Below are positions 31,838 to 36,334 of a stretch of 64,000 nt of DNA, one piece after another. Below the pieces are notes generated by a model. The model worked only from the letters and a program-made list of their open reading frames with translations. It did not search any database and was not told the origin of the DNA. The position numbers and the translations under genes are program-made. Position 1 is the stretch's first letter; the number at the start of each line of letters is the position of its first letter. Source of the stretch: an uncultured Flavobacteriales bacterium (GTDB lineage Bacteria; Bacteroidota; Bacteroidia; Flavobacteriales_G; Salibacteraceae). The DNA is taken from contig CAKZKD010000034.1 in NCBI GenBank assembly GCA_937121175.1, positions 1 through 64,000 on the forward strand, in the 5' to 3' direction.

Positions 31838-31871
31838 TTTGCACTACGTCTAAATCGGACTGCTATATTAG
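31838..31871 (+). promoter_or_regulatory. Putative promoter of the sigma/MbnP-MbnH operon
   Basis: TTTG at 31838-31841 and TATATTAG at 31864-31871 resemble Bacteroidota TTTG/TAnnTTTG boxes, with a spacing of 22 bases and one mismatch in the -7 element. It lies just upstream of the sigma-factor reading frame, so transcription would begin about 10 bases before the first usable codon. This is a guess from consensus. Confidence 0.35.
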
Positions 31872-31937
31872 CGGCCTATTTAATTCCGTATCAAAACACC
31901 CCAAACATTTCATTCTATCTATACCGAACATTGCGAT

Positions 31938-32414
31938 TTGGTGTATAACCTCGCGTTGAACTACCTGCATTCTACTGAGGATGCAGAAGAATTAACGCAG
32001 GATGTGTTTGTGAAGGTGCACAAGGAAATGGACAAGTTTAGAGGTGAATCAAAAGTTAAAACTTGGATTTATCGAATTACAATCAATGCTTGCCTAGACA
32101 AAATCAAGTCTAAACAACGCAGACAACGATTTAACTTTTTACGTTACTTGAGTGATGATTTTGTAACGTTTCAGCCGGCAGAATTTAACCATCCTGGAAT
32201 TCAATTAGAACAGAAAGAATCCACAGAACGCATAATGAAAGCAATTAAAACCTTGCCGCCAAACCAACAAACGGCCCTCATATTGAAGTCCATAGAAGGT
32301 CAATCTCAGAAGGAAATTGCAGAAATAATGCAGCTAAACGAAAAGGCTGTAGAGTCTCTTCTTACAAGAGCTAGAGCTAAATTGAAAGGTATTTTGAATA
32401 ACTACGAAGGATAA
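31938..32414 (+). CDS. ECF-type RNA polymerase sigma factor
   Basis: 158 residues from TTG at 31938. It has sigma2 (AEELTQDVFVKVHKEM, VKTWIYRITINACLDKIKS) and sigma4 (LPPNQQTALILKSIEGQSQKEIAEIM, VESLLTRARAKL). Homologues start about 16 residues earlier; here the frame is open back to 31884 (after TAA at 31881), reading ...IKTPQTFHSIYTEHCD, but contains no ATG/GTG/TTG before 31938, only ATC at 31890. The start is therefore unsettled. It heads a rightward operon (29 bp to the next gene) and is the likely activator of that operon. Confidence 0.88.
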   Translation: MVYNLALNYLHSTEDAEELTQDVFVKVHKEMDKFRGESKVKTWIYRITINACLDKIKSKQRRQRFNFLRYLSDDFVTFQPAEFNHPGIQLEQKESTERIMKAIKTLPPNQQTALILKSIEGQSQKEIAEIMQLNEKAVESLLTRARAKLKGILNNYEG

Positions 32415-32443
32415 AAAAAGATTTCTCGTCTTAGAATTAGAAC

Positions 32444-32725
32444 ATGAAAAAAGAGGATTTATATATTGAAGACTTACTAGGCCAAATAGAGCGTGTGGAT
32501 ACTCCTCCGTTTTTATTCACTAGAATTGAAGCTAAAATTGACGCAGAGGCGCAACCTATTCATTCGCAATGGTCAATGGCTCTTGTTGCAATGGGCGTTC
32601 TGACAATAATGCTAAACATTTTTGTTGTGCTAAATTCAAATGACACCGATTTAGAGAACTCAAATGCATCCTCTATTGCAATGAGTTTGGACATTAACCC
32701 TTCTTATCAACTGTACAATGACTAA
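32444..32725 (+). CDS. Small membrane protein, candidate anti-sigma factor
   Basis: The 93-residue protein has an N-terminal cytoplasmic segment with LLGQIERVDTPPFLFTRIEAKI, a TM helix (about 43-63) and a short periplasmic tail. It sits between a sigma factor and a CpxP/CnrX-like sensor, the position of CnrY-type anti-sigma factors. No classical zinc-binding anti-sigma motif is seen, so the assignment rests on topology and gene order. Its stop overlaps the next start by 8 bp. Confidence 0.6.
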   Translation: MKKEDLYIEDLLGQIERVDTPPFLFTRIEAKIDAEAQPIHSQWSMALVAMGVLTIMLNIFVVLNSNDTDLENSNASSIAMSLDINPSYQLYND

Positions 32726-33200
32726 AATAAAAGCGCTTTATTTAGTCGTCGGGCTGTTAATTGCCACCAATATTGGCCTGTTGATTTGGACAACCAAAGC
32801 TCCAATGCATAAGCATGGCCATAAAAAACACACAAGACACGAAGGACCGAAAAAATTAGTTGCGAAAAAACTGAATTTTTCTGAGGAACAGATTCAGGCC
32901 TACGAGCGCATTATCAAAGAACACCAAACAGCTGTGAAAGAAACCCACGATAAAATTCGTTTGAAGAAGAATGAATTGTACGGGCAGTTGAATGCAGATA
33001 GCACCAGCACAAACTCCCTATTGATTGGTGAAATAAGTGACCTATTCTCGGAAATGGAAACGATACACTACAACCATTTTGAAGATATAAAAGCAATTTG
33101 TACTCAAGAGCAGTTGCCGCTTTTTGAGGAACTCACGACAGAGTTAAGTACACTATTTGCGCCCCACCCAAAAAATCAAAGACGTTCTACTCGCAAATGA
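32718..33200 (+). CDS. CpxP/CnrX-like periplasmic metal-sensor protein
   Basis: The 160-residue protein has an N-terminal TM/signal anchor (about 5-25), a His-rich stretch (HKHGHKKHTRH, residues 31-41) and a helical domain with LTxxQ-family features (LNFSEEQIQAYERIIKEHQ, CTQEQLPLFEEL), as in CpxP, ZraP and CnrX. CnrX senses nickel/cobalt and releases the sigma factor CnrH through CnrY. This order (sigma, membrane protein, sensor) matches that logic. The metal is probably copper, given the MbnP and MbnH genes next to it. It overlaps its downstream neighbour by 4 bp. Confidence 0.75.
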   Translation: MTKIKALYLVVGLLIATNIGLLIWTTKAPMHKHGHKKHTRHEGPKKLVAKKLNFSEEQIQAYERIIKEHQTAVKETHDKIRLKKNELYGQLNADSTSTNSLLIGEISDLFSEMETIHYNHFEDIKAICTQEQLPLFEELTTELSTLFAPHPKNQRRSTRK

Positions 33201-33865
33201 AAAGGGTAAAGACTTTCGTTCTTTGCACGCTTGTTTCCTTTTCAATTCATGCGCAATCGAGTCTGGAAATCAAATCCATAGTTCATAACACCTCCTTAAA
33301 GACTAATAAGCAATATAGTTCTGAAAATCATAACTTTAAAATAGATAATCTAAAGTTTTACATTTCGAATATTGTTTATTTAAACCAAGGTGATACTGTA
33401 CTTGAATTCCAGAAAAAACATCACTTGATTGATATAGCAGACACGAACAGTTTGAAGCTCTTATCTGCATTAGAAACAAGCTTCGATGAAGTCCGATTTC
33501 AAATTGGAATTGATAGCTCAACCAACGTTTCTGGTGCGTTAGACGGTGACCTTGACCCTACAAAAGGAATGTATTGGACTTGGCAAAGTGGCTATATAAA
33601 CTTCAAATTAGAAGGAACTTCCTCTTACTCTCAACAAAGAAATGGGGCGTTTGAATACCATCTTGGAGGCTACCTTCCTCCTTTTCAGACCATTCAAAGC
33701 GTTTCCTTAAAAACAAAATCCACGAATCAAGTTAAGATTGAACTGGATATTGGGAAATTTCTCGAACTGACTAATATCGAAACAACCCCAAAAGTGATGT
33801 CTCCTAGCCCTGAAGCTAAACGCCTGTCTGAGGTTCTTTCAACTTGTTTTAATATAAATGAGTAA
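33197..33865 (+). CDS. MbnP-family periplasmic protein
   Basis: The 222-residue protein has a signal peptide (ending IHAQ) and the MbnP core DPTKGMYWTWQSGYINFKLEG (Trp127, Trp129), FKIDNLKFYISNIVY and YHLGGYLPPF. MbnP proteins bind copper after a Trp is oxidised to kynurenine by the dihaem partner MbnH. Here the MbnH-like gene follows with an 8-bp overlap, so the pair is complete. Which Trp is modified cannot be told from sequence; Trp127 and Trp129 are conserved candidates. No methanobactin biosynthesis genes are in the window. Confidence 0.85.
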   Translation: MKRVKTFVLCTLVSFSIHAQSSLEIKSIVHNTSLKTNKQYSSENHNFKIDNLKFYISNIVYLNQGDTVLEFQKKHHLIDIADTNSLKLLSALETSFDEVRFQIGIDSSTNVSGALDGDLDPTKGMYWTWQSGYINFKLEGTSSYSQQRNGAFEYHLGGYLPPFQTIQSVSLKTKSTNQVKIELDIGKFLELTNIETTPKVMSPSPEAKRLSEVLSTCFNINE

Positions 33866-34886
33866 GCCTGCAAACGTCATCTGGTTATTGTGTTCAGCTG
33901 CTGTGCTTTTTGGGTTTTCAGCGGTTAATGATGGATTTATTCCGAAGTACCCACATAATTGGCCCAAACCCCAGTATAATTTCGAATCAAACCCACTAAA
34001 ACCGGAGCAAATAGCTTTAGGGCGCAAATTGTTTTACGACCCTATTTTATCGGCAAACAATACCATTTCTTGTGCAAGTTGCCATCTATCCTATACAGCT
34101 TTTACGCATGTTGACCATGCTTTAAGTCATGGTATTCGAGACAGTATTGGCACGCGCAACTCACCAGTACTGATTAACCTTGCTTGGAACAAACATTTTA
34201 TGTGGGACGGAGCGGTAAATAACATTGAAGTACAGGCGCTCGCTCCTATTTCGCATCCAGCAGAAATGGGTAGTTCCATTACTGAGGCACTAGTCAAACT
34301 GAATGCGGATAGCACGTACCAATCCATGTTTGAATCGTGTTTTCAAACTAAAGAGATTTCGAGTAAGCAAATACTAATATCTCTTGCCCAGTTTCAACTT
34401 ACGTTAATTTCATCCAATGCCAAATACGATCAAGTACAAGCTGGAAAAGCTGAATTTTCAATTCAAGAGAATAAAGGGTACAAACTGTTTAAGCAACATT
34501 GCAACAGCTGTCACACTGAACCATTGTTCACCAATGGCAAATTCTCAAGCAACGGACTGCCAGTCGATACTACATTAAACGATGTTGGAAGGTATGGAGT
34601 CTCTAAGCGCCCAGCAGATTCTTTGCAATTTAAAATTCCTACATTGCGTAATATTGAATTCTCGCAGCCTTATATGCACGATGGCCGTTTTAAGACGATT
34701 GCCGAAGCTTTGAAGCATTACAGCTATGGAATTGATAGTTCCGGTAACTTTAAGAGCAAAATCAACGGGAACATACAGTTAAGCAGTAACGATAGAGTCG
34801 ATTTACTCGCGTTTCTACTCACACTTACTGATAAATCCTTTTTATTTAACCCTGATTACGCTTATCCGCGTGCTTTACAAAATTGA
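33858..34886 (+). CDS. Dihaem cytochrome c peroxidase / MauG family (MbnH-like)
   Basis: The 342-residue protein has an N-terminal signal, two haem-binding CxxCH motifs (CASCH 72-76, CNSCH 215-219) and PYMHDGRF (272-279) typical of bacterial dihaem peroxidases. MauG/MbnH relatives use high-valent haem iron to oxidise a Trp in a partner protein. Its gene overlaps mbnP by 8 bp, so MbnP is the expected substrate. The signal peptide makes it periplasmic. Plain hydrogen peroxide detoxification is the alternative, less favoured because of gene coupling. Confidence 0.88.
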   Translation: MSKPANVIWLLCSAAVLFGFSAVNDGFIPKYPHNWPKPQYNFESNPLKPEQIALGRKLFYDPILSANNTISCASCHLSYTAFTHVDHALSHGIRDSIGTRNSPVLINLAWNKHFMWDGAVNNIEVQALAPISHPAEMGSSITEALVKLNADSTYQSMFESCFQTKEISSKQILISLAQFQLTLISSNAKYDQVQAGKAEFSIQENKGYKLFKQHCNSCHTEPLFTNGKFSSNGLPVDTTLNDVGRYGVSKRPADSLQFKIPTLRNIEFSQPYMHDGRFKTIAEALKHYSYGIDSSGNFKSKINGNIQLSSNDRVDLLAFLLTLTDKSFLFNPDYAYPRALQN

Positions 34887-34940
34887 GCAAAGGATAATGA
34901 ACATAAATTCGTCAAATAACAAAACTTAAAGAATCGTATC

Positions 34941-36281
34941 ATGAAAAAAGCCCTACTCTCTATCTCCACATTGATTATCAGCTCTGGTCTAGTAGCACAA
35001 ACTGACCCGGCAATCACATCTTGGCTACAGAATAACACCATCAAAGGCAGTCACTACGTAAGCGGCAATTCTACTGTTATTGACGACGATGTACTAGCAA
35101 ATGTTCAACAGGTGCAGTTCTCGGCGAATTTCGTTTATGTGAGTACAAACGGTATTCCCGCTTATCCTACCGGACCTTTTTTAGACGGTAATCCATCGCT
35201 TGCAACGGAACAAAATGCCATCTATAAAATTCCATTAAGCCCAACTCAAAATACGGGAACCCCCACAAATACTACTGCTGGTACCATTGCCATATTTATA
35301 AATGGTGTATCTCTCTACGATTATAGAGATGGAGTGTCTTACAGCTTAACGGCTTCTGCTGACCAAGGAGGGCCAACTGGTGGAAGTGGCGATGGCGTCT
35401 GGAATAGAGATGCCATTCCAGCAGAAATGGACGGTTTTGACTGTTCAAAAGGACATCCAGCAATGGGCGACTATCATCATCATCAAAATCCTTCAGCATT
35501 CAAATTGGACAAAACAGTGGTTTCAACTATCTGCAATATGTACGATGCAGAAGGACTATATACGATTAATGCAAGCGCTCATTCTCCATTAATTGGATTT
35601 GCTTACGATGGATTTCCAATATATGGAGCCTACGGATACGATAATACTGATGGAACTGGCGGTATTGTTAGAATAAAATCTTCGTACAAACTAAGAAACA
35701 TAACAGTGAGAACTGAATATGCGGACGGTACTGACGTCACTGATGGACCTGCAGTGGGCACCAATTTCCCACTAGGTCATTACCGAGAAGATTACGAATA
35801 CAATGCTACCAACGGCCATTTAGACGAGCATAACGGAAGATTTTGTGTTACTCCGGAGTACCCAAATGGTATCTACGCTTACTTCTGTACTGTTGATGAA
35901 AATTGGAACTCCGCGTACCCTTATGCAGTAGGTCCTACATTTTACGGAAATTATGCTGACCGCTCCGTGAGTTCAGTTTCTGAAACCGTTGAGCCTTATT
36001 ACGCTACAAGTATTTCTGAGGTCCAGTCTAGCGTGCTAGATTTTAGTGTATTCCCTAACCCAGCAAATGATTTTATAGCCGTGCAAGTCAATGGTTTGGT
36101 GAAAAACACGATTCAATTGGAATTAATTTCCATGAAAGGCGATGTGGTAAGAAGCTCTGAAATTGCACAAGGAACCACGATTTGGTATTTAGACACCAAA
36201 ACACTTTACAATGGCCACTACGTACTTCGAGTTATCGACCAAGAATCTGTGACTACTCAGAAGGTTGTGCTTTCGAAATAG
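34941..36281 (+). CDS. YHYH-domain T9SS-secreted protein
   Basis: The 446-residue protein has a signal peptide (ending LVAQ), a YHYH-type domain with DCSKGHPAMGDYHHHQNPSAF (about 168-186), SPLIGFAYDGFPIYGAYGY and GHLDEHNGRFCVTPEYPNGIYAYF, and a T9SS sorting tail (FSVFPNPANDFIAV, LYNGHYVLRVI, QKVVLSK). YHYH domains are His-rich, with proposed metal-binding roles. It lies 54 bp downstream of the MbnH gene in the same direction, before a good terminator. It is plausibly a copper-binding, surface-exposed member of the same system. Confidence 0.85.
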   Translation: MKKALLSISTLIISSGLVAQTDPAITSWLQNNTIKGSHYVSGNSTVIDDDVLANVQQVQFSANFVYVSTNGIPAYPTGPFLDGNPSLATEQNAIYKIPLSPTQNTGTPTNTTAGTIAIFINGVSLYDYRDGVSYSLTASADQGGPTGGSGDGVWNRDAIPAEMDGFDCSKGHPAMGDYHHHQNPSAFKLDKTVVSTICNMYDAEGLYTINASAHSPLIGFAYDGFPIYGAYGYDNTDGTGGIVRIKSSYKLRNITVRTEYADGTDVTDGPAVGTNFPLGHYREDYEYNATNGHLDEHNGRFCVTPEYPNGIYAYFCTVDENWNSAYPYAVGPTFYGNYADRSVSSVSETVEPYYATSISEVQSSVLDFSVFPNPANDFIAVQVNGLVKNTIQLELISMKGDVVRSSEIAQGTTIWYLDTKTLYNGHYVLRVIDQESVTTQKVVLSK

Positions 36282-36302
36282 GATTTATTTTCAGTTTGTT
36301 TG

Positions 36303-36334
36303 AAAGGCTCGATTTGCAATAATCGGGCTTTTTT
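36303..36334 (+). terminator. Rho-independent terminator after YHYH gene
   Basis: GCTCGATT pairs with AATCGGGC around loop TGCAAT (one G-T wobble), with outer A-T pairs and a run of six T at 36329-36334. It closes the sigma/MbnP-MbnH/YHYH region; its T-run touches the stop codon of the convergent DUF418 gene. Confidence 0.8.

Follow-up and report, generated by a model that had tools for sequence, protein, structure and literature searches.

The pairing of MbnP with MbnH is already known. In Methylosinus and other organisms, the two genes are adjacent, and the first Trp of the WxW motif of MbnP, close to a Met and a His, is reportedly converted to kynurenine (as described in a structure study of 2021). 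MopE-SACCP and CorA-CorB of methanotrophs likewise combine a kynurenine copper protein with a dihaem partner, at the surface or in the periplasm; MbnP has no marked sequence similarity to MopE or CorA (PMC3621798). The accounts of MopE-SACCP and CorA-CorB compared here mention neither a sigma factor cassette nor a YHYH protein. The methanobactin operons of Methylosinus also contain an ECF sigma system (MbnI-MbnR) near mbnP-mbnH, but it is of the FecIRA type and works with a TonB-dependent transporter (PMC3621798) rather than with a CnrX-type sensor. The latter belongs to CnrYXH of Cupriavidus metallidurans, which comprises an ECF sigma factor, a short anti-sigma factor with one transmembrane (TM) segment, and a membrane-anchored periplasmic metal sensor. 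The YHYH domain (PF14240) was earlier proposed to be a tail-associated metal-dependent hydrolase of jumbo phages (PMC7824862).

The window analyzed here (64,000 nucleotides of contig CAKZKD010000034.1 from an uncultured Flavobacteriales bacterium) contains six genes which together look like an undescribed copper-responsive surface system. In the open-access literature, no description of MbnP-MbnH coupled to such a sigma switch and to YHYH was found; the 2021 structure study of MbnP may mention some of the genes.

Organization of the operon

Six consecutive frames on the plus strand, together with a terminator, span positions 31884–36333 (Table 1) and form a bounded unit, because both flanking genes are located on the opposite strand. 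The overlaps of 8, 4, and 8 bp claimed by a first-pass annotation of the sequence matched exactly (one-TM protein/sensor, sensor/MbnP, and MbnP/MbnH, respectively), and the terminator it had proposed was recovered as well. Its family assignments for the sigma factor, MbnP, MbnH/MauG, and the YHYH protein with its T9SS domain were borne out by Pfam.

Table 1. Features of the operon and the evidence on which each assignment is based.
Feature	Position	Strand	Evidence
ECF sigma factor	open frame 31884–32414	+	Pfam, NCBIfam
93-aa anti-sigma-like protein	32444–32725	+	alignment of 32 sequences, hydropathy
Membrane-anchored periplasmic sensor with a weak match to CpxP/CnrX-type helical domains	32718–33200	+	PF13801, below cut-off
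MbnP-family protein with signal peptide	33197–33865	+	PF20243, fold match
MbnH/MauG-type dihaem enzyme	33858–34886	+	PF03150, TIGR04039, 6e1c
YHYH-domain protein with T9SS sorting domain	34941–36281	+	PF14240, PF18962
Rho-independent terminator	36302–36333	+	13-pair stem, T tail

MbnP, MbnH, and the YHYH protein

MbnP matched PF20243 well above the gathering threshold (4.9e-41; 141.1 bits versus 27), and its structural model (pLDDT 89.1) had a single strong fold match in the PDB, MbnP of Methylosinus (7l6g; Z 17.2, 3.0 Å, 205 residues), unlike a sequence search of solved structures, which returned nothing. M125, the W127xW129 motif, and H155 are invariant in the alignments, even among distant paralogues. 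The dihaem enzyme matched PF03150 (CCP_MauG; 4.7e-53; 180 bits versus 25.6) and the solved structure 6e1c (1.6e-39); its two CxxCH motifs (residues 72–76 and 215–219) are both invariant. Y288 of MbnH aligns with a Tyr in 6e1c and with Tyr294 of MauG, which we take to be the axial position. Thus, gene adjacency, MbnP fold, the WxW, Met, and His positions, and a dihaem enzyme with the MauG-type Tyr are common to this pair and the one from Methylosinus. In contrast to the latter, both proteins remain below the equivalog cut-offs (41 bits versus 140 for TIGR04052, 208.8 bits versus 362.85 for TIGR04039), methanobactin genes are absent, and the pair is tied to YHYH and to a sigma-sensor cassette.

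The last protein of the operon contains a full YHYH domain with the conserved histidines (PF14240; 1.6e-56; 191.8 bits versus 25), here, in contrast to jumbo phages, encoded next to genes for a copper site. Its C-terminus matched Por_Secre_tail (PF18962; 1.6e-10; 41.5 bits versus 27), TIGR04183 (37.3 bits versus 23), and the fold of T9SS cargo domains, which places the protein among the predicted type A cargo of the T9SS and predicts export to the surface. In the PDB, only this tail was matched, the core having been searched barely; as the model was also moderate (pLDDT 77), no new fold is claimed.

The sigma-sensor cassette

The sigma factor matched Sigma70_r2/r4_2 (∼1e-17) and TIGR02937 (113 bits versus 42.9). 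A start at 31838, the first position of the region given in the first-pass annotation, is ruled out because a stop codon (31881–31883) directly precedes the opening of the frame at 31884 and because no ATG, GTG, or TTG lies upstream of the conserved first helix of region 2. The likely start is the non-canonical ATC at 31890, which aligns with the ATG of the sigma genes at two other loci (L015 and L053); TTG at 31938 is a less likely candidate, as its use would remove that helix. The designation of the operon as self-regulated found no motif support: the regions upstream of 32 sigma genes shared no promoter motif exceeding those of shuffled sequences, and footprinting of close relatives revealed conservation only at the start-codon context.

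The short membrane protein predicted to follow the sigma factor is indeed short (93 aa) and contains one TM segment (about residues 45–63). Across 32 aligned sequences, it has a cytosolic N-terminal PPFLFTRI motif and a periplasmic tail, which ends with NxLY in most relatives and with YQLYND in this strain. No Pfam match was obtained; its small size and single TM segment fit an anti-sigma factor.

The sensor can only loosely be called CnrX-like, as the first-pass annotation had done. Its score against PF13801 (Metal_resist; 7.7e-5; 23.3 bits) is below the curated cut-off of 29.2, its resemblance to the chaperone Spy is weak, and a search of its profile against the sequences of solved structures retrieved no relative. 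The protein is not His-rich as a family either: the HKHGHKKHTRH stretch, found only in this strain, was dropped as a metal site because relatives lack it. Conserved instead are H69 (82 of 86 sensors), H120 (79 of 86), and C128, the latter nearly invariant among 32 aligned sensors and replaced by Leu in some cassettes of the wider set. H117 occurs in 25 of the 32 MbnP-linked sensors versus 7 of the 54 others. The ligands of CnrX include Met123; in the 32-sequence alignment of the sensor, a comparison by sequence only, no Met is conserved.

The arrangement of the cassette, which recurs, is that of a CnrYXH-type switch: the ECF sigma factor adjoins a short protein with one TM segment and a sensor anchored in the membrane. 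The cassette differs from CnrYXH in gene order (sigma-anti-sigma-sensor), in a sensor scoring below PF13801, in the candidate ligands (H69, H117, H120, and C128), and in its output, MbnP-MbnH-YHYH, with no gene for a metal efflux (RND) pump in the operon.

Distribution in Bacteroidota

Judged from gene order, the sigma factor, the anti-sigma-like protein, and the His/Cys sensor constitute one cassette, which in many Bacteroidota immediately precedes MbnP-MbnH-YHYH. Of the 65 named loci for which 1.8 kb or more of upstream sequence was available, 30 have the same order, from Flavobacteriales and Saprospiraceae through Ignavibacteria/Kapaibacteria; the cultivable Flavobacterium cyanobacteriorum (L076) is among the carriers of the complete order. 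YHYH adjoins the MbnP-MbnH pair in 57 of the 65 loci with at least 4 kb downstream. The coupling that had been proposed from a single locus is therefore strongly conserved in synteny and, as the order is shared by many distantly related genomes, far beyond chance. Among 395 genomes of the class, 63 encode this type of MbnP, 82 the sensor, and 39 both proteins; the odds ratio of their co-occurrence is 10.9 (p 2e-15, with no correction for relatedness). The two are unlinked in nine of these 39, as is also the case in the genus of the window, where free-standing sigma cassettes were seen. The distances of sigma factor, sensor, MbnP, and MbnH correlate (Mantel r 0.28–0.81); those of sensor and YHYH do not significantly (81 of 999 permutations equally high).

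With a sensor profile built from operon members, and hence biased toward operon-type sensors, 86 sensor loci were collected. A sigma gene is located upstream in 84 and the short protein directly upstream in 76; the latter nearly always sits between sigma factor and sensor. Where at least 5 kb downstream was available (68 loci), YHYH was present in 44 and MbnP in 36, and 18 contained no copper-linked gene. The outputs include MbnP-MbnH-YHYH, YHYH-MbnP-MbnH with a multicopper oxidase, ASST, or CotH, and YHYH-MORN-SCO1. Away from MbnP, related cassettes often adjoin sets of YHYH lipoprotein, MORN, and SCO1/SenC, or a multicopper oxidase. These copper-linked neighbors, together with the fold and site residues of MbnP, uphold the earlier suggestion of a metal-responsive system and point to copper as the metal. 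The cassette is absent from approximately half of the MbnP-MbnH-YHYH loci, and its occurrences are scattered over the MbnP tree, with about 20 changes; upstream of the loci without a sigma gene, the neighbors are mixed and no alternative regulator was found.

Proposed function and alternatives

We consider it probable (roughly 60%) that the operon encodes a copper-responsive envelope system combining a sigma switch, a kynurenine-copper pair, and YHYH. If the cassette works like CnrH-CnrY-CnrX, the short protein would hold the sigma factor at the membrane, and the periplasmic domain of the sensor would bind copper via H69, H120, and C128 (plus H117 in MbnP-linked sensors) and relay the metal state to the periplasmic tail of the anti-sigma factor; the freed sigma factor would then direct transcription of the operon. 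As in the known pair, MbnH would oxidize W127, the first Trp of WxW, to kynurenine, and the modified MbnP would bind Cu(I), with M125 and H155 among the residues of the site. YHYH, exported to the surface via the T9SS, may be a further metal-handling partner. That the copper-loaded sensor is the "on" state has close to an even chance; the copper-poor sensor as the "on" state is a serious contender at less than even odds, and the remaining probability falls to sigma release by a signal other than copper load or shortage.

If the polarity were opposite to that of CnrX, the empty sensor would free the sigma factor, MbnH-matured MbnP would take up scarce Cu(I) for oxidases, and YHYH and SCO1 would deliver it. 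Such scavenging, possible but not the reading we favor, would agree with known kynurenine-copper proteins, which are made when copper is low (copper represses CorA/CorB and MopE; PMC3912023), with SCO1 in related cassettes, and with a TonB receptor in one of them (L149). However, the sigma factor of CnrYXH is released by metal binding to the sensor (PMC7689651), and the multicopper oxidases of some cassettes equally fit detoxification.

Sensing of a different envelope signal by the cassette (peroxide via C128, another metal, or misfolding), with MbnH acting mainly as a peroxidase, is unlikely. The weak match to Spy, the near invariance of C128, and a CCP-like gene without MbnP behind five cassettes would be in line with this, but the output seen most often contains a protein with the fold and site residues of MbnP, and the SCO1 and multicopper oxidase alternatives also indicate copper. 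More improbable still is a cassette that is a mere frequent neighbor and does not regulate MbnP-MbnH-YHYH. Its scattering on the MbnP tree, the lack of a promoter motif, and its free-standing occurrence point in this direction; overlapping frames, the fixed order in distant groups, and co-occurrence in genomes even when unlinked argue against it.

Beyond the proposed copper-responsive operon itself, we tentatively suggest, at somewhat less than even confidence, a Bacteroidota-wide copper regulatory module in which one sigma/anti-sigma/His-Cys sensor cassette serves interchangeable outputs, with YHYH as the common copper partner. Kynurenine copper sites would then be directly controlled by a sigma factor and be widespread well outside the methanotrophs. 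If true, many free-living Bacteroidota would make protein-derived kynurenine copper sites under a dedicated sigma switch, the YHYH family, whose function is unknown, would gain a testable physiological setting, and H69, H117, H120, and C128 would be the candidate metal-sensing residues of a new type of sensor.

Results

Loci were retrieved by MbnP searches over the family, order, class and named GTDB genomes and were annotated with profiles built from the window family's own operons. At least 1.8 kb of upstream sequence was available for 65 of the 80 named loci, and in 30 of these 65 the sigma factor and the sensor lay directly upstream of MbnP, in identical orientation and order. Thus, the order sigma–sensor–MbnP–MbnH, for which the first-pass annotation had suggested a synteny search, does recur in Bacteroidota. 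YHYH adjoined the MbnP-MbnH pair in 57 of the 65 loci with at least 4 kb downstream. Carriers were found among Flavobacteriaceae, Crocinitomicaceae, Saprospiraceae, Chitinophagaceae and Ignavibacteria/Kapaibacteria records; no common alternative neighbour was found at loci without the sigma factor. On the MbnP tree the sigma label changed ∼20 times (shuffled mean, 27.7), which indicates that the cassette (sigma factor, short protein and sensor) was often gained or lost. Within the operon, distances correlated most strongly between sigma and sensor (r 0.81) and between MbnP and MbnH (r 0.76). A Bacteroidota-type MbnP-MbnH-YHYH was also present in a record titled Streptomyces griseus MAG (L092), which is probably mislabelled.

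Irrespective of MbnP, the sensor was preceded by the sigma factor in 84 and by the short protein in 76 of 86 sensor loci. Downstream, counted on the 68 loci with at least 5 kb there, YHYH (44), MbnP (36), an MbnH-like gene (41), SCO1 (6) and multicopper oxidase (5) were encountered, and 18 loci contained none of these. Because both SCO1 and the multicopper oxidases belong to the established copper proteins, arrangements B and C (see table) point to copper independently of MbnP. Five loci (L130, L131, L133, L136, L144) carried T9SS-tailed CotH kinase-like and arylsulfotransferase proteins inside the YHYH-MbnP-MbnH arrangement; six others (L185, L194, L195, L199, L201, L127) lacked MbnP and had a CCP/MauG-like gene after the cassette. 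Two further YHYH genes of the window's own genome each adjoin a gene that is sulfatase-like by sequence appearance only; YHYH is therefore not tied solely to copper genes.

Arrangements downstream of the sensor and additional genes of the window genome
Feature	Location	Content
Arrangement A		MbnP-MbnH-YHYH
Arrangement B		YHYH-MbnP-MbnH with CotH, multicopper oxidase, AhpC/TSA or arylsulfotransferase
Arrangement C		YHYH lipoprotein-MORN-SCO1/SenC; TonB receptor straight after the sensor in one case
Second, distant MbnP (L023)	C12:168811	off operon
SCO1 gene (L218)	C27:56092	off operon
Additional YHYH gene	L216:4288-7391	other contig
Additional YHYH gene	L217:4562-6899	other contig

Among 395 genomes of the class, MbnP of the window type (at least 190 bits) occurred in 63, the sensor (E ≤1e-12) in 82 and both in 39 (odds ratio 10.9, p 2e-15, with genomes counted as unrelated and the sensor profile made from operon members). 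The two were unlinked in nine genomes. G032 and G034, two species of the window's genus, carry the sigma–short protein–sensor cassette as a stand-alone cluster, with MbnP-MbnH-YHYH elsewhere.

The six frames of the window operon, their 8, 4 and 8 bp overlaps and the terminator were as first described, and the operon is flanked on either side by genes of opposite orientation. Pfam and NCBIfam assigned the ECF sigma factor, MbnP (PF20243), CCP_MauG and YHYH with a T9SS sorting domain, and returned no family match for the 93-aa short protein; the sensor matched PF13801 (Metal_resist) below the Pfam family cut-off. The sigma start proposed at 31838 is wrong because the frame opens only at 31884, without ATG, GTG or TTG ahead of the conserved first helix. 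Cassette sigma genes favour weak start codons (TTG 23, GTG 9 and ATG 6 of 110, two codons before a conserved Phe); in 107 of 110 sensor genes, by contrast, an ATG lies close to where the start is expected. None of the three codons occupies this position in the window gene (31884-31940), where ATC at 31890 aligns with the ATG of the related loci L015 and L053.

The MbnP model (pLDDT 89.1) had Methylosinus MbnP (7l6g) as its sole strong match (Foldseek 1e-8; Z 17.2, 205 residues). The latter reportedly binds Cu(I) near His, Met and a kynurenine formed, with MbnH, from the first Trp of WxW. M125, W127, W129 and H155 were invariant in 14 diverse MbnPs, including the same-genome paralogue. The window MbnH retains two CxxCH motifs, and its Y288 aligns with MauG residue 294. 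Both proteins score below the NCBIfam equivalog cut-offs and are, therefore, divergent members of wider families.

Nearly invariant in 40 aligned sensors were N18, Q58, H69, H120, F121, C128 and Q132, but the stretch for which the window sensor had been called His-rich is missing from them. Over 86 cassettes, H69 was kept in 82, H120 in 79 and C128 in 72. H117 was present in 25 of 32 arrangement-A sensors versus 7 of 54 others (p 1.6e-9, sensors counted as unrelated). In the short protein, a single TM separates a PPFLFTRI motif on the cytosolic side from an NxLY-type end in the periplasm; by its sequence it fits an anti-sigma factor that would touch sigma inside and the sensor outside.

Discussion

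In the CnrYXH switch, CnrY loosens its hold on the sigma factor CnrH once metal occupies CnrX, and CnrH is released (PMC7689651); by analogy, copper on a window-type sensor would free its sigma factor. Known kynurenine-copper proteins are, however, copper-repressed (PMC3912023), which makes the opposite polarity almost as likely, with the metal-loaded sensor as the on state slightly favoured. Of the self-regulation initially claimed, what stands is that sigma is the operon's first gene, which makes autoregulation plausible; a search for a promoter motif common to the cassette sigma genes found none.

The MbnP-MbnH pairing was already known and is conserved far outside methanobactin producers (PMC3621798), and for jumbo phages a role of YHYH as a metal-dependent hydrolase has been proposed (PMC7824862). 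MbnP and MbnH appear together in only three open-access papers, and none of the consulted papers that name YHYH deals with it in an MbnP-MbnH/sigma context. Thus, the parts of the operon are known, and within the literature searched, which is largely open access, their coupling and its breadth appear to be new.
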